Below, piece by piece: positions 3,284-53,276 of a DNA stretch of 64,000 nt (the stretch's first letter is position 1; each line of letters begins with the position of its first letter). Made by a program: the position numbers and the translations under genes. The notes under the pieces were generated by a model. It searched no databases. It was given only the letters and a program-made list of their open reading frames with translations, and was not told where the DNA came from. Origin of the DNA: Pelagibius sp. Lineage in GTDB: Bacteria; Pseudomonadota; Alphaproteobacteria; Kiloniellales; Kiloniellaceae. The stretch is taken from assembly GCF_028289705.1 (NCBI RefSeq), contig NZ_JANQOI010000100.1:1-64000 (forward strand). Direction: 5' to 3'.

Positions 3284-6200
3284 TGAACCTGATCAGACTC
3301 GCCATCGAACGGCCCATCGCGGTCATCGCCGCGGTCCTGATGGTGGTGATGTTCGGCATCGTCGCCCTGCAGACCATCCCCATCCAGCTCGCCCCCGATG
3401 TGGACCGTCCGGTGATCTCCGTCGGCACCAGTTGGCCGGGGGCCGCCCCCGCCGAGGTGGAGCGCGAGATCGTCAACCGCCAGGAGGAGGAACTGAAGGG
3501 CATCGAGGGCCTGGAGAACATCACCTCGAATTCCAATCAGGGCGGCGCCCGCATCTCGCTGGAGTTTTCCGTCGGCACCAACATGGACCGCGCCCTGCTG
3601 CTGGTCTCCAACCGGCTCGACCGGGTCAACGGCTATCCCGACGAGGCCAACGAACCCAGCCTGGATACGGCGGGCAGCGAGGACAGTCCTATTGCCTGGT
3701 TCATCCTGACCCGCCTGGACGGCAACGACCGCCCGATCCACGAGTACGGCGACTTCGCATCGGACGTGATCCGCGAGCGGATCGAGCGGGTGCCCGGGGT
3801 CAGCGCAGTGAACGTCTACGGCGGCACGGAGCGCGAGATTCAGATCACCGTCGAGCCGCGGGTCTTGGCGCAGTACCGCATGACGGTGAGCGAAGTGGTG
3901 GACGCCCTGCGCCGCGCCAATGCCTCGCTGAGCGCCGGTGACGTGGACGAGGGCAAGCGCCGCTATGTCGTGCGCACCGAGGGCGAGTTGAACACCCTTG
4001 AGGCGATCCGCGACGTTGTGGTGCGCAGCGATTCCGACGACGACAGCGGGCGTGTCGCGCGGGTGCGGGTCGGCGACATCGCCGACGTCGCCTTCGCCTA
4101 CAAAGAGCCGGGCGCCTCGATCCGCATGCTCTCCGAAAACGCCATGGCCCTGAATGCCCAGCGCGAGACCGGGGCCAACGTCATCGAGACCATGGAGGGC
4201 ATCAAGGCGGCCGTGGCGGAACTGAACGCAGGCATCATTCCGGACTCCGGCCTGAAACTGCGCCAGGTCTACGACGAAACGGTCTACATCAACTCGGCCA
4301 TCGATCTGGTGCAGCAGAACATCTGGATCGGCGGCAGCCTGGCGGCCATCATTCTGCTGGTCTTCCTGCGCTCCATCGGCGCCACGCTGGTGGTCTCCAT
4401 CGCCATTCCGGTCTCGGTGATCGGCGCCTTCGTGGCCATGGCCGCCATGGGCCGTTCGATCAACGTGATCTCCCTGGCCGGCATCGCCTTTGCCGTCGGC
4501 ATGGTGGTCGACGCCGCCATCGTGGTGCTCGAAAACATCTACCGCATGCGCGAACAGGGCTACTCGCGCCGGGAAGCCGCTTTCCGCGGGGCCAAGCAGG
4601 TCTGGGGCGCGGTGCTGGTCTCCGCCCTCACCACGGTCATGGTCTTCATTCCGATCCTGGTGATGAAGCTGGAGGTCGGCCAGCTCTTCCGCGACATCGC
4701 CGTCGCCATCTCGGTCTCGGTGATGCTGTCGCTGATCGTCTCCATCACGGTGCTGCCGGCCCTCTCGAGCTGGCTGCTGGGCGGTGGCGGGAACAAACTG
4801 AGCGAGGACAGCGTGACGCGCCTGCGCTTGCCGGTGATCGACGAGCTGGCGTCCCTGTTCATTAAGCTGATCATGGGCTTCGTGCGCATGGTGGTGCGCA
4901 GCCGGCTCGCCGCTCTGCTGGTCGTCGCCTCGGTGACCCTCGCCGCCTCCCTCGGTGCCTGGCACTATCTGCCGAAGCTGGAGTACCTACCCGAAGGCAA
5001 CCGCAACCTCGTCTTCGGCGTGATCATCCCGCCCCCCGGCTACAACCTCGACACCACCACAGGCATCGCCGAGGAGATCGAAGGCGCCATCCGCCATCTC
5101 TGGGCCACCGAGTCCGGCCCCGAATCGGCGCCCGGCGAACCGCCGAAGATCGAGCGCTTCTTCTTCGTGGCCCGGCGCGCCAACACCTTCCTGGGCGCCA
5201 CCTCGGTCGATCCGCAGCGCGCATCGGAACTGATCCCCGTCCTGGAGGGGCCGGTGTTCCGCGAACCGGGGACCTTCGGCTTCATCAGCCAGCCGTCGAT
5301 CTTCGGCCGCGGACTGGGCGGCGGCCGCAAGATCGATCTGGACATCTCCGGTCCGGACCTGGAACAGATCCTCAGCGTCGCCCAGCAGGCGGTGGGGCGC
5401 ATCTCCGAGATCATGCCGCGCGACCAGGGCAATCAGATCCGGCCCAAGCCGGGCCTGGAACTCGGCGCCCCGGAAGTCAGGCTGTTCCCGGACCGCCTGC
5501 GGCTGGCCGACAACGGGGTGACGGCGCGCCAACTGGGCGAGGCCATCGACACCTTCAACGACGGCCTCAGGGTCGCCGAGGTGACCGATGGCTCCGAGCG
5601 GATCGACCTGACCCTGAAGGGGCCGGACCTGAACGTCGTCGAAACCCAGGGCATCGCCAGCCTGCCGGTGGTCACCCCCAACGGCGATATCATTCCCGCC
5701 TCTTCCCTGGCCGATGTCGTCCTCACCTCCGGGCCGACCCAGATCCGCCACCGCGAACGCCTGCGCACCGTGACCGTCGAGATCCGCCCCACCCAGGGCA
5801 TTCCGCTGGAAGCGGCGCTGGACCTGCTGCGCAGTGAAGTGATGGAGCCGATGCAGGCCGAGGGACTGCCGCCGGGCGTGCGCTTCGGCATCTCCGGGAC
5901 CGCCGACAAGCTGACCCAGACCTGGGAAGCCATGGTGGTGGACCTGCTGCTGGCCCTTGCCATCGTCTATCTGGTCATGGCGGTGCTGTTCGAGAGCTTC
6001 ATCTACCCGCTGATCATCATGCTCTCGGTGCCACTGGCGGCCGCCGGCGGGGTGGCCGGTCTGGCGATTCTGAATCTCTATGCCTACCAGCCGTTGGACA
6101 TGCTGACGCTCTTGGGATTCGTGATCCTCATCGGCATCGTGGTGAACAACGCCATCCTGCTGGTCCACCAGACCCTCTACCATCTGCGCGAAGAGGGCAT

Positions 6201-8052: not shown

Positions 8053-8595
8053 ATGACCGCCCCGGCGCCCCGGTCATCGGTGCTGATTGCGCTGATCGTG
8101 TTGGCGCTTTCGGTCCCGCCCGCCGCCATGGCCGGAGCGGCCGACGACATCCGCGGCCAGGCCAGGATCATCGACGGCGACAGCCTGGAAGTCGCCGGCC
8201 AAACCCTCGACCTGGCCGGCGTCGACGCCCCGGAGATCGAGCAGCGCTGCGAGCGGCGCAATCGCCTCTACGACTGCGGCCGCCTGGCCCAGGCGGCGCT
8301 GATGGACCTGACCGCCGGAACCGAGGTGGCGTGCCGGCTGCTCGCCGCCGCCCCGGCCGGGACCGCCGCGCCGCCCCTGGCACGCTGCAGTGCCGGCGGC
8401 TACGACCTCTCCGAGGGCATGGTCTACACGGGCTGGGCGCTGATGCCGCCGGGCCCCCAGGCCGGGGGCAGGATCGCGGGTTTCGAGACGATCCAGGACA
8501 AGGCCGCGGAGAAGCAGCGCGGACTCTGGAAGGGCAGTTTCGTGAAGCCCTGGGAGTGGCGCAAAGGGGCCCGCCTGCCGCTGGAGACCCAGTAG
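8053..8595 (+). CDS. Secreted thermonuclease-like (SNase fold) protein, catalytic residues degenerate
   Basis: 180 aa with an N-terminal signal peptide (hydrophobic 10-25, AMA-GA near 27) and an SNase-like domain. IIDGDSLEV (39-47) and LAGVDAPE match the family's DGDT and VDTPE motifs, followed by GRLAQAAL and a C-terminal LWKGSFVKPWEWRK. The arginine that precedes the VDTPE loop in staphylococcal nuclease is Asp here (TLDLAGVDAPE), and the later GR catalytic arginine motif is also not clear. The protein may therefore bind rather than cut nucleic acid. ATG 8053 follows the XRE stop by 19 bp, so the two may be cotranscribed. Confidence 0.78.
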   Translation: MTAPAPRSSVLIALIVLALSVPPAAMAGAADDIRGQARIIDGDSLEVAGQTLDLAGVDAPEIEQRCERRNRLYDCGRLAQAALMDLTAGTEVACRLLAAAPAGTAAPPLARCSAGGYDLSEGMVYTGWALMPPGPQAGGRIAGFETIQDKAAEKQRGLWKGSFVKPWEWRKGARLPLETQ

Positions 8596-8719
8596 GGCGG
8601 CCCCTGCATTCCACGGCGCTTGATCGCTGCTCCTGACCAAACCGCTCTGGACGGCAGGGGCCCGTGGGCGCTAAGCAGTGATGCGACGGATTTGTCCCGC
8701 ACAGCCGAAGGAACTGACC

Positions 8720-9172
8720 ATGGCCTACCCCAAGGGATTGCGTCCGCGCTGCCTGCTTGGCGCCGTGCTGTCGGTCTGCGTCCTGCTCGTTCTGTCCGCG
8801 GCCGCTACGGCTGACGGTTTCTTCTCCCCCACCTACGCCACCTCGGCGGAAGGGTCGCCCTACAGCGGGGTCTATTCCCGGACCTTTGGCACCACCGGCG
8901 ACGTGCCACGCGGTTCGGTCCCCCAGGGCGACCCCGAGGGGCTGGTCTATGTCATCGACAGCAAAGGCCTCTCCACCTACCGGGCCACCGCGTTCGCCGC
9001 CGCGGAGACCCCGATCCCGCTGCGCAAGCCGCTGCCGGCAGGAACCCAGCTTGCCGCCCCGCGTTCGCGCGCCCAGGTGCCGACGGTGGCCGACACGCTC
9101 TATCTGCAACCGCCTCTGCCGACGGCGGCGGGACCCGACGCGCCCCCGCCGGCAGAGAGCGAGCCGCGCTAG
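8720..9172 (+). CDS. Hypothetical secreted protein
   Basis: 150 aa, not recognised. It has a signal peptide (basic MAYPKGLRPR, hydrophobic core 11-30, cleavage near ATA-DG). The mature part is Ser/Thr/Gly-rich at first (TYATSAEGSPYSGVYSRTF) and Ala/Pro-rich at the end, with no cysteines and no transmembrane segment. I use ATG 8720 because AAGGAA lies 8 nt upstream and the signal peptide starts exactly there. An ATG at 8678 would add 14 unlikely residues. It lies between the SNase-like and 2OG-oxygenase genes on the same strand. It is probably a periplasmic or surface protein of unknown role. Confidence 0.6.
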   Translation: MAYPKGLRPRCLLGAVLSVCVLLVLSAAATADGFFSPTYATSAEGSPYSGVYSRTFGTTGDVPRGSVPQGDPEGLVYVIDSKGLSTYRATAFAAAETPIPLRKPLPAGTQLAAPRSRAQVPTVADTLYLQPPLPTAAGPDAPPPAESEPR

Positions 9173-9185
9173 GCCCGGCACCTCA

Positions 9186-9836
9186 GTGGTCAGCCCAATT
9201 CAGCCTGCAGCCGTGACGGCGCGCTGGTCCTTCGAGAGCGATGCCCGGGACCTGGCCGAGGCGATTGCCCGCCTGCCGGAGGAGGACGCTGTCTCCCTGC
9301 CGCTGTTGGACGCGCAAAGCTGCCGGGCACTGTTGGAAGAGGCCGCGATCCTGAACTTCCGCCCGGCGCAGCCGGTCATCGGCGAGGGCGACAAGCGGGT
9401 CTGGCAGGACTGCGAGGTGAGCTGCGCGGTTCCCCCGGACGGCGCGCTCGGCGAGTGCGCGGCAGCCTTGGACGCCCACTTCGCGGCGGCTCTGGCCCTT
9501 CTAGCGCCCGATCCGCTGCCCCAGGGCTATCGCATCAACGATCTGATCTACCAGCGCTACCGGCAGGGCTCCGAGGGCATCACGCCGCACCGCGACCACA
9601 TCGCCTACCGCGGCCTGATTTCGGTGATCACGCTGAGCGGCCGCTGCCGCTTTGCGGTCTGCCGGGACCGCGGCGGCGCCGATGCGCGCGCCGTGCCGGC
9701 CCCGCCGGGCTGGCTGGTGCTGATGCGCGGTCCCGACCTCTACGGCCTGCAGGACCGGCCCTTTCACTTCGTCGACCGCTTTGCCGAGGCGCGGATCAGC
9801 GTCGGCCTGCGCTATGACCGCCGGATCGCGGCCTGA
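9186..9836 (+). CDS. 2OG-Fe(II) oxygenase, AlkB-like
   Basis: 216 aa with a double-stranded beta-helix oxygenase core. ITPHRDHIAYRGLISVITL supplies the HxD iron pair, and PFHFVDRFAEARISVGLRYD supplies the distal His and the 2-oxoglutarate-binding Arg. The region between (GWLVLMRGPDLYGL) fits AlkB-type proteins, which oxidatively demethylate nucleic acids, but substrate residues cannot be judged here. The open frame extends far upstream through the preceding gene. I place the start at GTG 9186, and GTG 9213 is an alternative. Neither has a good ribosome-binding site. Confidence 0.72.
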   Translation: MVSPIQPAAVTARWSFESDARDLAEAIARLPEEDAVSLPLLDAQSCRALLEEAAILNFRPAQPVIGEGDKRVWQDCEVSCAVPPDGALGECAAALDAHFAAALALLAPDPLPQGYRINDLIYQRYRQGSEGITPHRDHIAYRGLISVITLSGRCRFAVCRDRGGADARAVPAPPGWLVLMRGPDLYGLQDRPFHFVDRFAEARISVGLRYDRRIAA

Positions 9837-9914
9837 CACCGCCGCTCCGTGGACCTTGGCCTTAGGGCGGGCGGGTGATAGGACATCCGCCGATCCGTTC
9901 CTTGCTATCGGCCA

Positions 9915-10952
9915 ATGCACACCGACGATTTCGACTTCGACCTGCCCCGCGACTTGATCGCCCAACACCCGATCGAGCCGCGGGAGGCTGCCGGGCTGCT
10001 GCACGTCGGGCAAGGGCTCGCGGACCTCAAGATCGCCGACCTGCCGGACGTGCTGCGGCCCGGGGATCTGCTGGTCACCAACGACACCAAGGTCATCCCG
10101 GCGCGCCTCACCGGGCGGCGCGGCACCACGGGCATCGAGGTCACGCTCCACAAGTCGGTGAACGGCCAGTGCTGGCGGGCCTTCGCCCGCCCGGCGCGCA
10201 AGCTGAAGGCCGGTGACCGTCTGGACTTCGCCGAGGGCTTCGGCGCCGCGGTGGAGGCCAAGGGCGAGGCCGGGGAGATCACGCTGACCTTCGATGCCGG
10301 AGGGCGCGAGCTTCTGGCGGCCCTGGAACGTTACGGCGTGATGCCCCTGCCGCCCTACATCCAGCGCGGCGCCCAGGGCGATCCACGCGACCGGCACGAC
10401 TATCAGACCGTCTTCGCACGGCAGGAAGGCGCGGTCGCCGCACCCACCGCGGGGCTGCACTTCACCGAGCCGCTGCTCGAGAAGCTCGCCGAGGCCGGCA
10501 TCGAACGGGTCGCCGTCACCCTGCACGTCGGCGCCGGCACGTTCCTGCCGGTCAAGGCCGAAGACACCAGCGCCCACAGGATGCACAGCGAGGTGGGTGA
10601 GATCGGCACGGCCGCCGCCGAGGCGATCAACCGTGTCCGCGCCGCCGGCGGGCGCATCGTCGCGGTGGGCACGACCGCCCTGCGGCTGCTGGAAAGCGTC
10701 GCGGCGGAGGACGGGCGCATCGAACCCTTCGCCGGCGAAACCGACCTCTTCATCCTGCCGGGCTACCGCTTCAAGGCTGTGGACCTGTTGCTTACCAACT
10801 TCCATCTGCCGCGCTCGACCCTCTTCATGCTGGTCTGCGCCTTCGCCGGCAAGGCGCGCATGGAGGCGGCCTACGCCCACGCCATCGCCACGGGTTATCG
10901 CTTCTATTCTTATGGCGACGCCTGCCTGCTGGAACCGGAGGGGCCGCGATGA
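9915..10952 (+). CDS. queA: S-adenosylmethionine:tRNA ribosyltransferase-isomerase
   Basis: 345 aa, full length. QueA transfers and isomerises the ribosyl group of SAM onto preQ1 in tRNA to give epoxyqueuosine. Conserved blocks include [14 protein letters not shown] at the N-terminus, [44 protein letters not shown] and [17 protein letters not shown] near the C-terminus. The ATG of tgt overlaps its stop (ATGA), so queA and tgt are coupled. I looked for a preQ1 riboswitch in the 78 bp upstream and saw none. Confidence 0.97.
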
Positions 10953-12106
10953 GCGAAGCCACGCCCCTGCCCGGGGACAACCCCGGCATCGCTTTCGACC
11001 TCTTGGCCGAAGACGGCGCGGCGCGGCGCGGGCTTCTCACCACCGCTCATGGCCCGGTGCAGACCCCCGCCTTCATGACCGTGGGCACGGCGGGCACCGT
11101 CAAGGGCCTGACCAGCGAAGCGGTGCGCGCCAGCGGCGCCGAGATCATCCTCGGCAATACCTACCACCTGATGCTGCGCCCCGGTGCCGAACGTGTGGCT
11201 CGGCTCGGCGGGCTGCACCGCTTCATGAACTGGCCGGGCCCGATCCTGACCGATTCCGGCGGCTTCCAGGTGATGTCCCTGCAGGAGCTGCGCAAGATCA
11301 CCGAGGAGGGCGTGACCTTCCGCTCCCACTTCGACGGGGAGCGCCACGACCTGACGCCGGAGCGCGCCGTCGAAATCCAGGAACTGCTCGATGCCGACAT
11401 CACCATGGTGCTGGACGAATGCACGCCCTTTCCCGCCGGCGAGGGCGAAGCCCGGGAATCCATGGAACGCTCCATGCGCTGGGCGGCGCGCTGCCGGGAG
11501 GCCTTCACCCGCCGGCCGGGCTACGGCCTCTTCGGGATCGTGCAGGGCAGCGTCTACCCGGACCTGCGCCTCGCCTCCGCCGCCGCCCTCACCGCCATCG
11601 GCTTTGATGGTTATGCCGTCGGCGGCCTCGCCGTGGGCGAGGGGCAGGAGGCGATGTTCGAGGTTCTGGATGCCACGGTCCCGGCCCTGCCCACCGACCG
11701 CCCGCGCTATCTCATGGGTGTGGGTAAACCAGCAGACATTGTGGGGGCCGTGCAGCGCGGCATCGACATGTTCGACTGCGTGCTGCCGACCCGCTCCGGG
11801 CGCACCGGCCAAGCCTTCACCCGGCGCGGCAGCGTCAACCTGCGCAACGCCCGCCATATGGAGGACAGCCGCCCCCTCGACCCCGACTGCCCCTGCCCAA
11901 CCTGCGCCGACCACTCCCGCGCCTATCTGCATCATCTCTTCCGGGTCAAGGAGATGCTGGGCCCGATCCTGCTCACCCGCCACAATCTGTACTACTATCA
12001 GGAACTGATGGCCGGACTGCGCCAAGCGATCGAGGAGCAGAGGCTTGACGACTTCGCGGCAGACTTTGCGCAACAACAGGCGGCGGGCGACCTGCCGGCC
12101 CTTTAG
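10949..12106 (+). CDS. tgt: tRNA-guanine transglycosylase
   Basis: 385 aa. It exchanges guanine-34 of GUN-anticodon tRNAs for preQ1. [10 protein letters not shown] carries the general-base Asp. MFDCVLPTR carries the nucleophilic Asp. [18 protein letters not shown] near residue 310 is the structural zinc site (three Cys and one His). It overlaps queA by 4 nt and is followed by a striking inverted repeat, then queG on the same strand. This is a canonical queuosine cluster and there is nothing odd in the protein. Confidence 0.98.
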
Positions 12107-47907: not shown

Positions 47908-48334
47908 CGCGTATTGAATCTGGGCTTACGCCGTCGCCAGCAACTCAGCATGGCATCGACCATCCAAGTTTCGACATGCCTCCCTTCCGCCCCGCTGTTC
48001 ACCAGGGGACGCCACGCGACTGTGAAGCATTGGATGTGATGCTCGCAAAACGGGCCTCTCCGCGCCAGCGTCGCTCCGAAGGGGAAAACTCCTCGCAGCG
48101 CTTGAGTCACGCGGTCAGCAAGGATAGATCTCGCAGCCGGATATGACCGGGAATCGGACTGCGCAAACGTTGGCTGAAGGCCTCGAAGGGGCGAAAAGCG
48201 GGCATTCGCTCCCGACGCAAATCTGTTACACTCTTACTTGGTGAAAAGATTCGCCATAAATACGCGCATCGCCGTTAGGCACCAAAATAAGTTCATACGT
48301 TCCAATCGAACGAATTCTGAAGGATCTCATAGAA
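47908..48334. other. Left boundary region of the accessory island, 427 bp
   Basis: No gene supported. A 72-codon frame on the minus strand (47892-48110) has a protein-like look but no recognised family and overlaps the napC end. GC content falls across this stretch. No tRNA gene, direct repeat or integrase was recognised that would mark an attachment site. Confidence 0.4.
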
Positions 48335-48970
48335 TTGCACATTCAGGGAAAGCGCAATGCGGTACGCATTCTGTTTATCCTTGCTAAGGCTGGCGAGCCA
48401 GTCAAGCGATCGGCGCCCGCGGATACATGTCTTGTTGTGCATGCCGAGAAAAGGTTGCAAGCGCTAGACTTTTGGATGCGCAATCCTGATTATCTTGCAT
48501 CTGAAATCCTAAACCAGTTCGATGCCGATCCGACCCAGAAAAAGCTTCTGAAGATTGCCGAAACCGTGATGGACGGGGATGAACCCGATATTCGCAGATT
48601 GGCTATGCAACGCTTTCTGTTCGGTGCTTGGGAAGCACTTGATGACGCCATAGCCACGCTGTCACTTCCTGGTCTGGTAAAGATGGAACGAAAGTACTCG
48701 GCCGATGGATCTAAGATCCGGCAGACTAGTTATTATCTTACGGTCGAAGGCAAAACGAAAGCGGCAGAGTTGGAGAAGGTCGAACCACTCGATTGGTATG
48801 CCAAACGCGCAGAAGTCGTCGCAGAGATAGCCGGCACTCGTACAGGGAATCAGCTGAAATCACTGCAATATCAAGTCGCACAGTATAACGATGCAAGGCA
48901 CGGGTCGCTCATCGCACCCATCCGCGCCGAAGTTGAAGAACGCCTCGCAAAGCTGCAAGTGTCGGCATGA
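48335..48970 (+). CDS. Winged-helix-like component of an SMC-type putative defence operon
   Basis: 211 aa, no exact family recognised. The middle (about 120-150) reads DDAIATLSLPGLVKMERKY, then TSYYLTVEGKTKAAEL, the helix-wing pattern of winged-helix domains. The rest is helical, with acidic DADPTQKKLLKIAETVMDG. The start is TTG 48335 with AAGGA 10 nt upstream. The frame stays open to 48260 but without ATG or GTG. Its stop overlaps the ATPase ATG (ATGA). By position and size it is like the small partner (LmuC or 'middle component') of SMC/ABC conflict systems, which is inference. Confidence 0.65.
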   Translation: MHIQGKRNAVRILFILAKAGEPVKRSAPADTCLVVHAEKRLQALDFWMRNPDYLASEILNQFDADPTQKKLLKIAETVMDGDEPDIRRLAMQRFLFGAWEALDDAIATLSLPGLVKMERKYSADGSKIRQTSYYLTVEGKTKAAELEKVEPLDWYAKRAEVVAEIAGTRTGNQLKSLQYQVAQYNDARHGSLIAPIRAEVEERLAKLQVSA

Positions 48971-50907
48971 CCGATAGGAGAGCTAAAGAACTGCCGTTTC
49001 CAAAGGCCGTTTCCGCAGCTACAGGCTGCTCGGTGAAGGAAGTCAACGAAATACTTGCACAGTATTCGATTGAGCCTGCCGGTACAGCGCCTTCAGCGCG
49101 CCCTCTTCGTGTCGTACGGATTGCATTTTCTGGCCAAAAAGAAATCAACAGCGAGTTCGAACCGTTTTCGTTTGAATGGGAGGTTGATCGAAATGGCGTG
49201 TGGGGAATTCTTGCTGCAGAAAATCTTGTCGGCAAGTCCTCCATTCTTCAGATTGTCCTTTGGGCTTTGCGCGGTCGGTACAAGAGCTTAACCGCAACAG
49301 TTAGAAACTGGATCGAACACGTAGACGTCACGTTTCGCGTCGACGGCCGGTTCCTTCGTGTAGAGTTTGATGTCGAAGACGGGGAGCCGCTGGGAGTAGT
49401 TCGCTATGGTAGCTCACCTGATACTGCGACTGATCGCGTGTTTGACGGTACCGAAGAGTTTCAAGATGTAATGCAAGAGATCATGTTGTCCGCCTTGGGC
49501 TTGGAGCCGATTCCGGCAAGCCAAGTCGCAGCTGGTCGCATTGTGCCCTACGATGATGGATGGGCTGCCTACACCGGTGCTTTTCTAACCGATGCGGAGA
49601 GTGATGCCATAATTGGGGAAAATGTAGGCGGAGATCTTATCCAACGGTTACTCCAAGTCTACATTGGAATTCCCTGGGTAAGAACCTATTTTCAGGCTAA
49701 GAGGCATACACGCCTACTGGAGCAAGATAGCGCTGCCCGCCGACGTAAACTGCAAGGTCTTGGTGGAAGGTCCCTCGATGATCTCGAAGCTGAACTCATG
49801 GAGATCAACGCCAAATTACAAGAAGAGGGTGCGAACAATCTCGCCTCACAACAACTAAATTCCGCTCGCACCGAACGGGATGATCTGACAACGCGTGTTC
49901 AGGCGCTTTCAAACTCACTGACAGATGCGAAGGACACGGCAGCGACTTGCCGGCAATCCCGAATTGTCGCAGAGCAAGTGGTCAACGCACTTGCAGAAGA
50001 AAGCGCAGCATCGCACTTCTTCGGACTTCTCAAGCCGCACTCATGTCCGCGCTGCAGCGCGAAGATTGAGGCCGTACGGTTCAAAAAAGAGCAGGAAGAC
50101 AACGAGTGTTCGGTTTGTGCCGAAAAACTCGTGAAAGTGGATCCAAAAGAGCTGGAGGCTGAACGAGCGCAAGCTGAAGAGCGGCTAAAGGATGCGAAAA
50201 AGACTGATCGCGATGCGGAGCGTTTCGTGAAGAGACTTGAGACGAAGCTTCAAGAGAGTCGCAATCGACTTAATGACGTCGGCCTCACACTCAATCAGCT
50301 CGCTGCAGCGGGCACTGCAGCAGATGCTGGTATTCTCCAGTCCGAAAGAGACCACCTAGAGGGAATGATCCAGGCAGCTACTGCCATCCTTGAAGCTGAG
50401 AACGACTCGGCCAATGATTTGTTGGTCGTCCGTGCAGCTCGAGACGAAGCAGAGCACCGCGTAAAGCAAGCTTCCATCGAAATCATGGCTGAGGTTTCCT
50501 CCGAGGTTACGCGACTGTGCAAGGGGCTCGGAATACGTGATGTGGAGTCCGTGACTCTAAAGCGAAACGCTCATGTTGATGTTGTCAAGGGTGGAAGCCT
50601 GTCGAAGTGGAAAGACCTCTCTCCCGGCGAAAAGCTACGCCTTCGCATCGCAACGGTCATCGCCCTATCGCGCGGTGCCCAATCGCTCGGTATGGGGCGC
50701 CACCCCGGGCTTCTTCTGATTGACTCGCCCGGACGCGAAGAAATTCAACCCGAGCATCTTCACGAGATCATTTCCGAGCTTGTAAAGCTAACTGCCGACT
50801 ATCCCGATTATCAGATGTTCATATCCATGACAGGAGTTCCGTCTGATCTGGATGGAGTTCCGAGTAGTCGCATTCGTTATGCAGAAAAGGGCAGCTCCCT
50901 ATGGTAG
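48967..50907 (+). CDS. Rad50/SMC-like ABC ATPase with paired-CxxC zinc hook
   Basis: 646 aa. An unusual 45-residue N-terminal extension is followed by an ABC half-domain. The P-loop is AENLVGKSS (84-92, Ala instead of the first Gly). Two coiled-coil stretches (about 258-350 and 388-510) flank a hook with C360-x2-C363 and C381-x2-C384. The signature is LSPGEKLRLRIA (551-562) and Walker B is LLLIDSPG (582-589), with Ser where the catalytic Glu usually follows Asp586. It resembles the SMC subunits of Lamassu and ABC-three-component systems in plan. Codon and base use are less GC-rich than the flanks. Presumed DNA-sensing motor of the operon. Confidence 0.85.
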   Translation: MTDRRAKELPFPKAVSAATGCSVKEVNEILAQYSIEPAGTAPSARPLRVVRIAFSGQKEINSEFEPFSFEWEVDRNGVWGILAAENLVGKSSILQIVLWALRGRYKSLTATVRNWIEHVDVTFRVDGRFLRVEFDVEDGEPLGVVRYGSSPDTATDRVFDGTEEFQDVMQEIMLSALGLEPIPASQVAAGRIVPYDDGWAAYTGAFLTDAESDAIIGENVGGDLIQRLLQVYIGIPWVRTYFQAKRHTRLLEQDSAARRRKLQGLGGRSLDDLEAELMEINAKLQEEGANNLASQQLNSARTERDDLTTRVQALSNSLTDAKDTAATCRQSRIVAEQVVNALAEESAASHFFGLLKPHSCPRCSAKIEAVRFKKEQEDNECSVCAEKLVKVDPKELEAERAQAEERLKDAKKTDRDAERFVKRLETKLQESRNRLNDVGLTLNQLAAAGTAADAGILQSERDHLEGMIQAATAILEAENDSANDLLVVRAARDEAEHRVKQASIEIMAEVSSEVTRLCKGLGIRDVESVTLKRNAHVDVVKGGSLSKWKDLSPGEKLRLRIATVIALSRGAQSLGMGRHPGLLLIDSPGREEIQPEHLHEIISELVKLTADYPDYQMFISMTGVPSDLDGVPSSRIRYAEKGSSLW

Positions 50908-50938
50908 AGGCCGGTTTAGTTAGACGTCGGCACCCAAG

Positions 50939-52138
50939 GTGCGGTTCGTCATTGTGAGCGAGCTAGGCCAAGCCATTATAGACTTGGAAGCGGCAGGGCA
51001 ACCCGTGACGATTACTGCCTTAGGTGGAATTGATAGCCTGCTGAAGTCTGATTTTCACACGACATCTACATTTGGAGTCGTTTCTGCGGCTATAAGCAAT
51101 GAATGGAGTACAATTAGCGATCACGGACCCATGCTGGAGCGCCTTGCAGACGGCCTCAAACTCAATGCTGATCGTTTGGTCTTGCGCGAAAGCGTTCAAG
51201 CCCTTCAGTCTTTGCCTCAAGATACGTTTCGTATGTTCGTCTTAGCACTTGAGGGCCGAACACGTGATGCATCTGAGCACCCTCTTATGCAGGCGGAAGC
51301 ATCTGCAGGGCTTGTCCGCTTTGCTTTGGTAGATCATCGTTGGAGTGTTAACGCGTGCGCCGCTCTGCAGGCCTACGAACCTGGGACCGATCCCCTTGCT
51401 GATCCGATGTATTGCCGTTTGGTGTCAGTGGCTCACGACTTCTTCGACTTCACGTATGCCGTTTCGCTTCTTGAAGAATTTGCAAAGCTTCAAACCTCTG
51501 CGGCACAAGCAAAACTTGAACGCGGACTTGTTGAGGTTTCGCTCGCTTTGTCGAGTGCTTCCTTACCAGATATTGAGCAGCGATTAGCCGAAGCGGAAAG
51601 ATGGTTGGCGCGGGCGGTCGAAGCCGATGATGAGCGGCGCGACACACGTAGTTATCACTTGTTGGTCAAGTCTATTCTGAGCCTACAAAGCTCCGAGAAA
51701 TCTGATTTGAGCCAGTTGGTCGATGAACTCCGAACTGAAGCTTTCGTGGGCGACCTCTGGGACCGACCATCGCCAGGTATGGAGTGGCTCGTTTCGCCGT
51801 CTTACTCATTGTCGGCGTGGGTACCAGTTGTTGAGAGTCTTGGCCATATAGCAAATCAGCTCAGCAAACCAAGCTGGCTTGATGCGTCTGGTGTTCTTGA
51901 GCATGTACATCATCTCTACAGTGTTAGTCGGTCTGTGCGGCCCGGATCCCCTAGTCTAGGGATGTACTTTAAGCCGATCATAGAATCCGCCTTTGTCCGG
52001 GAATTCGGACTTGCGGCGCATTTGAGAGACTGGCTGGATGCAGCCCCACCAGATCACATACGACGACAAGACGCCGAACGCCTCCAAGCAAATGTCGAAA
52101 GGTATTCGAAGGATCATGACCCGCCAAAAAAGCTCTGA
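50939..52138 (+). CDS. Unrecognised helical protein, N-terminal part of a probable frameshift fusion
   Basis: 399 aa from GTG 50939, and GTG 50954 is an alternative. I recognise no domain. It is almost entirely predicted helix, with heptad-like segments (AAQAKLERGLVEVSLALSS, IEQRLAEAERWLARAVEAD), so a repeat (TPR/HEAT-like) scaffold is possible. It starts 31 bp after the ATPase. It ends with codons CCA AAA AAG CTC TGA, where A AAA AAG is a -1 slippery heptamer. A slip would carry ribosomes into the nuclease frame and give a 630-aa fusion. It may supply the recognition or regulatory part of that effector. Confidence 0.65.
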   Translation: MRFVIVSELGQAIIDLEAAGQPVTITALGGIDSLLKSDFHTTSTFGVVSAAISNEWSTISDHGPMLERLADGLKLNADRLVLRESVQALQSLPQDTFRMFVLALEGRTRDASEHPLMQAEASAGLVRFALVDHRWSVNACAALQAYEPGTDPLADPMYCRLVSVAHDFFDFTYAVSLLEEFAKLQTSAAQAKLERGLVEVSLALSSASLPDIEQRLAEAERWLARAVEADDERRDTRSYHLLVKSILSLQSSEKSDLSQLVDELRTEAFVGDLWDRPSPGMEWLVSPSYSLSAWVPVVESLGHIANQLSKPSWLDASGVLEHVHHLYSVSRSVRPGSPSLGMYFKPIIESAFVREFGLAAHLRDWLDAAPPDHIRRQDAERLQANVERYSKDHDPPKKL

Positions 52139-52169
52139 GGGGTGGTCCAGCTGGTCCTACGTCCACCCC
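52109..52169 (+). promoter_or_regulatory. Candidate programmed -1 ribosomal frameshift cassette
   Basis: The elements, in order: SD-like AAGGA (52109-52113); 12 nt; slippery heptamer A AAA AAG (52126-52132) in the frame of the helical protein; the zero-frame stop TGA (52136-52138), within the 6-nt spacer (52133-52138); and a perfect 7-bp stem GGGGTGG/CCACCCC (52139-52145 with 52163-52169). This is the E. coli dnaX arrangement. The -1 frame continues through a Gly/Pro linker (RGGPAGPTSTP) into the nuclease. Confidence 0.7.
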
Positions 52170-52176
52170 CAAGACG

Positions 52177-52830
52177 TTGCTGGAGGGGCTCTCATCTAAT
52201 GGCAGACATTTGGTTGCATCGGTTGAGAATACCTTCTGGATACGTACTGACATTACAGCTGTTCAACAAAAACTCTTTCGCAAGATCGTCGAGAAGCTCG
52301 AAAATGCGCCGGACTACGAAAGTGAAGTCAAGGCCGAGTTTGATCGACTGGTCCTTTTGTTAGTCAAATTTCTGACCGAGAGGATCGACGGTGAGAGTAA
52401 GAGATTTCCCTATTTGAAGCGGATCTCAAACAGCTCGAAGGCACCAAAGGAGAGCGCGCTTCAGGACGATCTCCATAACTATTTGCTTTCTATTTTGGCC
52501 TCAGAGGTAGAGAAAGTAGACATAAGTTCGGGTCGCGCCGACATCTACATTCCACGAACTTCTTTTAGATTGATCATTGAATTGAAAAGGGTGTTTAAGT
52601 GGAATGATGAAACTCTGAAACCTTTTCTCACCCAAACCGTCGCATACAGCCAAGCGGACATACGCTTGGGGGTGCTCGGTGTGCTCGATCTTTCTGATCG
52701 CCCCCCTGGTGTCCCACACATAGACAAGTGTTTCGAAGTTACCAGCCGCCAAATTGAGGGTGAAGAGGATCGAACGACGCTCGTAATGCGGGTGCCAGGT
52801 AATGTGCGAACACCATCAGATTCGAAGTAA
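52177..52830 (+). CDS. PD-(D/E)XK nuclease domain, probably translated by -1 frameshift from the preceding gene
   Basis: 217 codons from TTG 52177, but the frame is open from 52120 and has no ATG or GTG before the catalytic core. A restriction-endonuclease-like fold is clear: E92 (KESALQDDL), D122 (GRADIYIP), E135-L-K137 (LIIELKR) and Q153 (TQTVAY), the E...D...ExK...Q pattern. TTG 52177 has no ribosome-binding site. The overlapping frameshift cassette at 52109-52169 is the likelier route, making these residues 414-630 of a 630-aa fusion. If the shift is a fixed indel, this would be a pseudogene half. Likely effector nuclease of the SMC system. Confidence 0.72.
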   Translation: MLEGLSSNGRHLVASVENTFWIRTDITAVQQKLFRKIVEKLENAPDYESEVKAEFDRLVLLLVKFLTERIDGESKRFPYLKRISNSSKAPKESALQDDLHNYLLSILASEVEKVDISSGRADIYIPRTSFRLIIELKRVFKWNDETLKPFLTQTVAYSQADIRLGVLGVLDLSDRPPGVPHIDKCFEVTSRQIEGEEDRTTLVMRVPGNVRTPSDSK

Positions 52831-53276
52831 GAAATTTTGACCGGCTCGCTTGTGGTTTGGCGGTACTCGTACGGCACATCAGTGCTTGAATAATGCTGCG
52901 GCTCGTTATCATGAAATCTCACCTGTGTTTGGAGTGAGCCGAGATCTCCCGTCCCTACGCTGGCTTTAACGTCAGCATCGAGATCGAAGCGGTCAGTGCA
53001 ACCGTCCGATTGGTGGATCGTGACTCTCGAAGAATTACATGCATTCATCGGCAAAGCACCTGGGCGACCACGCTTGCGAACGGGTGAGGGCGCCCTCGCG
53101 GCGTTGGCCCCTCCCCTGCCGCTCCCAGGACAGCGTTGCGGCATCCTCTGGCTCCGCACACCGGGACGACGCAATCCGGTTCGGCCATGGAGCGCAATTG
53201 ACAAGCCGTGAACCAGCCGTAGTCTCCCCGTTACGTCCAAAACAAAAAAATCAAAGCGGATCGGAAGGGGACCTGA
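52831..53276. other. Intergenic region, 446 bp, right of the SMC operon
   Basis: No gene supported. Short open frames (for example 52996-53211 on the plus strand) lack recognisable features. Composition is mixed, AT-richer at the left and GC-rich from 53060. No terminator with a U-tract was seen. It may contain decayed sequence left by insertion of the operon. Confidence 0.4.

Follow-up and report, generated by a model that had tools for sequence, protein, structure and literature searches.

A conserved -1 frameshift signal at the domain linker of the Lamassu effector LmuA

The Lamassu operon and its two-frame effector

The window, by which we mean the whole 64,000-nucleotide stretch of Pelagibius sp. 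DNA analysed here (contig NZ_JANQOI010000100.1), carries an LmuC-LmuB-LmuA locus that PADLOC profiles identify as a Lamassu defence system. All three components are recognised at the level of sequence profiles, and a role in defence against phages or plasmids is inferred from this. The features of the locus are as follows.

48335..48970, + strand: LmuC, middle Lamassu component, TTG start as listed (PADLOC PDLC03872, E 5.8e-72)
48967..50907, + strand: LmuB, Rad50/SMC-like ATPase (PADLOC PDLC03864, E 4.2e-173, residues 11-646)
50939..52138, + strand: LmuA zero frame, helical part without nuclease, predicted product LmuA-S, 399 aa ending in DPPKKL before the stop
52109..52113, + strand: SD-like AAGGA, 12 nt 5' of the heptamer, role doubtful
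52126..52132, + strand: slippery heptamer A_AAA_AAG, in the zero-frame phase (CCG CCA AAA AAG CTC TGA)
52132..52830, + strand: LmuA -1 frame, linker and restriction-endonuclease-like domain, 232 aa after the slip
52136..52138, + strand: zero-frame stop TGA, 3 nt past the heptamer (TAG at the equivalent place in the Pseudovibrio locus L019)
52139..52169, + strand: stem-loop, GGGGTGG (52139-52145) with CCACCCC (52163-52169), a perfect 7 bp with a 17-nt loop and a 6-nt spacer

LmuC and LmuB are adjacent with overlapping ORFs, and the zinc-hook-like cysteines of LmuB (C360, C363, C381 and C384) are invariant in six sequences. Pfam and NCBIfam returned no match above their cut-offs. The PADLOC model for LmuA (PDLC03853, 655 positions) is matched by both frames, at 3-402 (E 1.3e-65) and at 453-652 (E 3.1e-53), so that the helical protein and the nuclease described in the sequence-only reading are one effector in two frames. 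The GC content of the operon is 50-55% (48-53 kb), while most of the window is above 60%; the region at 53.5-56 kb is also lowish, with 55-61%. The low-GC Lamassu stretch (window 48000-53000) lies between napC-like and cytochrome c genes, names that were given by eye only. A tRNA scan of the whole window found no tRNA genes in it.

In AlphaFold2 models, the zero-frame part of LmuA is a confident all-helical domain (pLDDT 89.7) whose final helix covers residues 376-392, ahead of the slip codons 397-398. The -1 part (mean pLDDT 79.5) begins with 34 residues of pLDDT <50, which are followed by a nuclease-like domain, and the slip site, as modelled, sits between two separately predicted domains. 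Residues G134, R135, D137, E150 and K152 of the -1 part are invariant in 16 sequences, and we take the conserved D...ExK to be the PD-(D/E)XK nuclease motif. The best structural neighbour of the -1 part was BamHI (VIA-align Z 6.9, rmsd 4.8, 149 aligned), with OkrAI, McrC and others as further neighbours, all below Z 7. Foldseek returned no match at E <= 0.001 for the -1 part and only weak helical-repeat matches for the helical domain, and sequence searches of the PDB with both parts found no clear relative, the best match being TOM20-3 with the helical part (E 0.0089).

The AAGGA, the in-phase heptamer, the rapid TGA and the 7-bp stem all lie exactly where the sequence-only reading had placed them. 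The -1 frame opens only past a TGA at 52117-52119, which leaves an overlap of 19 nt between the frames (52120-52138), and A_AAA_AAG is the sole in-phase X_XXY_YYZ in this overlap. The -1 frame, translated as ALRGGPAGPTSTPK..., continues into the nuclease up to a stop at 52828-52830. The nuclease had also been described as lacking an ATG or GTG start, and this holds for the inspected portion of the -1 frame, where neither codon occurs; the first listed start is a TTG at 52177, with no SD sequence visible by eye before it. The predicted slip product, LmuA-L, would join 398 zero-frame residues to the 232 aa of the -1 part, giving 630 aa.

Taken alone, the window offers limited support for the elements around the heptamer. 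An overlap of five codons would contain a heptamer by chance in ~1.5% of cases (132 in-phase X_XXY_YYZ per 45,100 LmuA codons of the relatives). A probability estimate over four overlaps assumed an independence that is absent among related sequences, and a synonymous null and a phase test were relied on instead. When compared with shuffles, folding of the window sequence gave z values of -0.79 (40 and 45 nt), -0.33 (42 nt) and -0.40 (50 nt), and longer stretches folded less stably than shuffles (+1.52 at 60 nt, +1.16 at 80 nt). Against synonymous recodings the stem did not stand out (z -0.67, p 0.25). On the window alone, neither the stem nor the SD-like element is beyond chance, and both gain weight only through comparison. 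The genome of the window has one confirmed gene each for tRNA-Lys UUU and tRNA-Lys CUU, and since CUU is present besides UUU the efficiency of E. coli dnaX cannot be assumed; tRNA-Lys CUU may lower slipping on AAG, leaving an efficiency perhaps below the E. coli value.

Relatives with LmuA split at the linker

LmuA is split by a -1 change of frame at the linker in the window and in three relatives (L019, L096 and L058), and each of the four overlaps has an in-phase X_XXY_YYZ. The only close relative found is L019, from Pseudovibrio denitrificans, in which LmuB is 75% identical to that of the window. Its heptamer is again A_AAA_AAG (11158-11164, in the context CCC CCA AAA AAG CAC TAG), and the stem GGGGTGG/CCACCCC and the loop length are those of the window. 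The alignment of homologues that had been proposed as a check therefore came out in favour of the signal, since heptamer, phase, rapid stop and stem are kept despite a changed stop codon and changed loop letters. The SD-like element was not seen in the 20 nt 5' of the L019 heptamer, and there are no statistics behind either its presence in the window or its absence there. All three of the proposed dnaX-style elements are present in the window, but L019 does not support the SD-like one, and the stem and the SD-like element are weak when taken alone. Comparison of the four longer LmuA pieces between the window and L019 gave a divergence of 0.61-0.73 at third and 0.13-0.24 at second codon positions, a pattern that vanishes in the other reading frames of the C part; for the last short piece of LmuA-N only 12 codons could be aligned.

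The locus L096 was found in a search of the Azospirillum family and shows 41% identity in LmuB, 36% in LmuA-N and 41% in LmuA-C. Its -1 split contains an in-phase G_GGA_AAA (5576-5582). Similarity in the zero frame reaches the last base of this heptamer (query residue 398 corresponds to L096 5582), but the window query ends one residue past 398, so the similarity is not shown to stop at the heptamer; the -1 frame matches the window from 5600. The distant L058 has its -1 split with an in-phase G_GGA_AAC, a heptamer outside the efficient class. The window, L019 and L096 form one clade in the tree (support 100/100). L058 branches near that clade, although on a long branch of uncertain placement, and the split label needs two changes on the tree. 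Three other rows of the tree (L050, L067 and L068) had internal stops, and the placement of L067 is untrustworthy. Compared with synonymous recodings, the stems of the three split relatives were no stronger either (z -0.70 for L096, -1.12 for L019 and -1.21 for L058; p 0.13-0.22); against dinucleotide shuffles L058 reached z -4.5, unlike its value under the synonymous null.

Searches for closer relatives covered 385 and 348 genomes of the class, 398 of the phylum, 143 of relatives and 61 of the window's order, and further searches covered 87 genomes of the Pseudovibrio family, 397 of its order and 82 each of the Azospirillum family and order. Beyond L096, these gave only distant LmuB or weak matches, including G1295 (L102) and G930 (L109). 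A tblastn search with LmuA-N found no match in plasmids and phages, and scans of viral contigs gave two distant LmuB matches (L105 and L106).

A split of this kind could also reflect an ordinary frameshift mutation or an assembly error, in which a length change in the A run marks a decaying or misread gene. The run of six As is a homopolymer prone to indels, and in the draft assembly the LmuA of L019 (9967-11876) is interrupted by three more frame breaks, possibly draft-genome errors, which make it weaker evidence than a clean genome would be. LmuA is also broken in L076 from Brucella endophytica (8800-10736), where a small indel shifts the frame within the helical domain, off the linker; this break resembles an ordinary mutation or an assembly error and serves as a contrast case. 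However, the linker break is the same in the window and L019, the window copy is otherwise intact and the coding pattern is retained in both frames between the two. No long homopolymer accompanies the breaks of L096 and L058, which lie at the same linker, and the relatives described below conserve heptamer, phase and hairpin. An accident in the A run is, on this evidence, a very improbable source of the split.

Slip heptamers and hairpins in continuous relatives

The first six relatives, with LmuB 25-31% identical to that of the window, all have LmuA in one frame (6/6), and five of these six recur among the genomes of a larger set of 70 loci obtained from an LmuB-alignment scan of genome contigs. 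In 66 of the 70 loci LmuA is one ORF of at least 600 aa; the others are the split L019 and L058, L062 at a contig end and L076, broken elsewhere. L018 and L096 came from another search and are not among the 66. A second set consists of 18 plasmid loci, picked from 30 of the 36 LmuB records before their linkers were read. The gene tables cover the locus in 14 of these 18, and all 14 give LmuA as a single hypothetical CDS; the records without an LmuA locus in the gene table are L135, L137, L138 and L139.

The 84 continuous LmuA ORFs of both sets carry V_VVA_AAR in 31 cases, A_AAC_CCY in 17 and another heptamer in 4, with none in 32. The relatives' linker heptamers align at the window's slip column, and the two main classes are found there in the slip phase in 48/84. 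Homologues with a continuous frame had been named in advance as what would refute the frameshift, and on its face this was met, by the first six relatives and then by all 84 ORFs. It does not refute the frameshift, because 48 of the 84 have a slip heptamer at that very place, together with covarying hairpins.

The kind of heptamer differs between groups of bacteria. G_GGA_AAA is the type seen in alphaproteobacteria and also in some actinobacteria, others of the actinobacteria have C_CCA_AAA, and A_AAC_CC(C/T) occurs in a group rich in beta/gamma members; 12 of the 18 plasmid loci have G_GGA_AAA or C_CCA_AAA. In measurements made in E. coli, V_VVA_AAR is among the most efficient bacterial heptamers (PMC4066793; this and the other articles cited by PMC number were available to us in part, and what is said of them holds for those parts). 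This class covers A_AAA_AAG, G_GGA_AAA and C_CCA_AAA. In the same study C_CCU and C_CCC stand higher among the C tetramers than C_CCA and C_CCG do, and A_AAC_CCA is one of three motifs that stay below threshold even with a strong stimulator (PMC4066793). The LmuA sites end in CCC or CCT, not CCA, and no value for A_AAC_CCY was found in the available part of that article. In the two beta/gamma tree groups, which make up 20 C_CCY rows without the Providencia L067, placed elsewhere in the tree and left out, the site is C_CCC or C_CCT in 20/20 and a -1 stop follows one codon past it in 20/20. The residue before this stop varies (T, P, S, G, I, L) and one row has TAA instead of TGA. Three of the 20 (L042, L059 and L081, counted within the 32 without a heptamer) have lost the full heptamer and kept C_CCY and the -1 stop.

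Under a synonymous null, in which the amino acids were kept and new codons were drawn according to the usage of the ORF concerned, 11.8 linker heptamers were expected in the first set and 40/66 were observed (P 2.4e-19), and in the plasmid set 12/18 were observed against 2.75 expected (P 5.6e-9). With one sequence per 60% cluster the counts were 16/33 against 4.6 (P 1.9e-8) and 7/12 against 1.8 (P 4.0e-5), and when Y was limited to A or T the per-cluster counts were 9 and 7, with 1.35 and 0.55 expected. Sliding 30-column windows over 45 representatives found 21-23 heptamers at the linker, 6 at the next best place and a median of 1. The phase of the linker heptamers was equally uneven, with 59 in the slip phase and 9 and 15 in the others across the 84 ORFs, compared with 102, 119 and 123 in the rest of the same ORFs. 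On the frequency, the synonymous null and the phase counts, an origin of the linker heptamers by chance alone was rejected.

The linker signal is not universal, and in the 36/84 without the main heptamer classes it is lost, replaced or was never present. Planctomycetes are among these 36, and so is a Roseobacter-rich group (L026, L035, L038, L055, L068, L072 and L077) in which the linker has neither V_VVA_AAR nor A_AAC_CCY and LmuA is still one open frame; L068 has T_TTC_CCG at this place. The signal of the Roseobacter-rich group is lost or of another kind. A Rhizobiales-rich group (L079, L069, L073, L136, L138 and L139) has C_CCY close to the slip column, which may be a tetramer signal of lesser strength, and in L138 a -1 stop also stands one codon beyond it.

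These counts bear on the possibility that translation of the nuclease begins at a site of its own close to the zero-frame stop, whether independently or by coupling, and gives a separate subunit. The TTG at 52177 could serve as such a start, the -1 frame of L096 contains both a GTG and a TTG close to the junction, and in L058 an AGGAGG follows the stop. Nevertheless, the inspected -1 frames of the window, L019 and L058 contain no ATG or GTG, the TTGs of the window and L019 are at different codons with no SD visible by eye before them, and the two domains form one chain in 84 relatives, with the slip heptamer in place in 48 of them. Separate initiation can be given little credence on this evidence.

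The hairpins were examined in the 42 nt past the 48 linker heptamers. Mean z was -2.39 against dinucleotide shuffles, with -0.07 in 96 control stretches, and -2.2 against synonymous recodings, with -0.14 in the controls; under the synonymous null, 25/48 linker sites and 4/96 controls were at or below -2. The eight A_AAC_CCC rows were weaker (z -0.8 to -1.2). For the 15 sequences of the alpha group the stem has 9 bp and begins 4 nt past the heptamer, with 91.9% of cells paired and double changes, AU to GC and UA to CG, in three of its pairs. For the 17 sequences of the A_AAC_CCY group, 12 of them distinct, the stem has 12 bp, with 88.2% of cells paired and three pairs changed on both sides. Slid versions of these stems paired at most 71.9% and 66.7% of cells, respectively; the structures were drawn from the tested sequences, which gives them an advantage over the slid versions. 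Double-change cells numbered 11 in the alpha and 10 in the A_AAC_CCY group, against 3.7 and 5.0 in shuffles, and for these cells and the covariation score only 0 to 4 of 500 shuffles reached values as high, while the count of double-change pairs (3 and 3) and of pair types showed no excess over shuffles in either group. As judged from covariation and the synonymous null, a putative stimulatory structure downstream is supported at the family level, and not by the window alone.

Transcriptional slippage on the A run, giving mRNAs of both frames, is barely credible here: it is known for Thermus dnaX with its nine As, has been proposed for two-ORF dnaX genes and may also act on two shorter homopolymers combined, which the GGGAAAA of L096 resembles (PMC3711429), but the A6 of the window and L019 is shorter than the usual eight or more (PMC3711429), slippage of this kind has no need of the ribosomal phase that the linker heptamers keep, and the covarying hairpin points to the ribosome.

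Predicted LmuA forms and comparison with known systems

Our results indicate, with high though not full confidence, that LmuA with and without its nuclease arises from conserved -1 programmed ribosomal frameshifting; the products, their ratio and their role are not shown. What the comparison of relatives does establish at the sequence level is the conservation of heptamer class, phase, position and hairpin, and it is this conservation that backs the original claim that the helical protein and the nuclease are connected through a programmed -1 frameshift. Without a slip, translation would end at TGA 52136-52138 and yield only the helical domain, LmuA-S; ribosomes that move back one base on A_AAA_AAG, probably helped by the stem 6 nt downstream, would make the nuclease form LmuA-L. 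In the continuous relatives the zero frame would encode the full nuclease and a slip would give a truncated helical product, whereas in the window's clade the frames past the slip site appear to be swapped, so that the slip gives the full nuclease. Both layouts would yield two proteins from one gene, which suggests that selection keeps making both forms. Only if ribosomes were already slipping at that place would the nuclease survive a frame swap, and since both products would be kept, programmed -1 frameshifting was chosen as the cause.

The best-known bacterial cases of programmed -1 frameshifting are those of dnaX, mobile elements and phage genes. E. coli dnaX has a stop close behind the heptamer, a downstream stem and an upstream SD sequence, and the -1 frameshifts of phage tail chaperones use the same heptamer classes, often with a downstream structure. 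The tau and gamma products of E. coli dnaX resemble the LmuA forms in the A_AAA_AAG heptamer and in being a long and a short product with a common N-terminal part (PMC3711429). However, the zero frame of E. coli dnaX encodes the long form, which fits the 84 continuous LmuA relatives and is reversed in the window, and an upstream SD sequence is not shown to be conserved in LmuA. The likeness to dnaX put forward earlier thus extends to the heptamer but not to the polarity, as slipping would lengthen the product in the window. Two-ORF dnaX genes found with GeneTack offer another parallel, with one- and two-frame genes at the same site in one family, but they have runs of 7-10 As and are ascribed to transcriptional slippage (PMC3711429), unlike LmuA with its several kinds of heptamer, phase bias and hairpin. 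The -1 frameshifts of IS elements also share the heptamer classes and often a downstream structure (PMC4066793); both these and those of tail chaperones concern mobile-element or virion proteins, not an antiphage effector. In Lactococcus, the pseudogene LLNZ_RS02295 is read through a slippery heptamer created by a deletion, and as in LmuA an indel at a slippery X_XXY_YYZ is tolerated through ribosomal frameshifting (PMC10986495); that case, however, is a single gene compared with other strains, while the LmuA slip site is family-wide and occurs with both layouts.

The window locus shares with the Lamassu, DdmABC and ABC-3C systems the gene order LmuC-LmuB-LmuA, a Rad50-like LmuB and a nuclease effector, and the consulted part of the account of Lamassu makes no mention of frameshifting (PMC10586767). 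As far as the available part of the Lamassu review goes, LmuA effector domains are N-terminal and docking is C-terminal; in the window the helical part comes first and the nuclease last, so that a slip at the linker would remove the nuclease only. No report joining Lamassu or antiphage defence with ribosomal frameshifting was found among titles and the beginnings of abstracts in the open-access literature searched, and four articles with words of both topics (PMC12799240, PMC12409362, PMC10986495 and PMC11100668) did not, in the parts available, report frameshifting in Lamassu or antiphage defence.

In Vibrio-type or DdmABC systems, activated LmuA is released and its homo-tetramer switches on a nuclease of the Cap4 kind, according to the part of a review at hand (PMC12409362). 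By analogy, nuclease-free subunits would be expected to blunt the tetramer step of LmuA. We infer that LmuA-S may take LmuA positions on LmuB/LmuC or join the LmuA oligomer as a nuclease-free subunit, and that it could in this way limit firing and act as a safety ratio for a toxic effector, none of which is shown. A bolder proposal, that the ratio of LmuA forms is itself the sensor or safety of the antiphage complex, a recoding switch that sets effector firing, is speculative and in our judgement unlikely. Phage takeover would then alter charged tRNA or ribosome load, and with it slipping and the armed fraction, and the swapped-frame clade of the window would respond with the opposite sign to its relatives.

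If the two forms are made, the annotated full-length LmuA would be only part of what many such operons produce, and a natural subunit may be absent from the reconstituted complexes, structures and toxicity assays of this type of Lamassu system. The frame swap in the window's clade would be a rare natural test, in which a frame change that abolishes the nuclease is tolerated if a slip site pre-exists, and it raises the question of whether nuclease-free LmuA restrains autoimmunity. Divided genes at these loci are not limited to LmuA. LmuB lies in two annotated CDS in L124 (3417-5326, Roseovarius sp. AK1035), and in L018 it lies in two frames (8070-9796).
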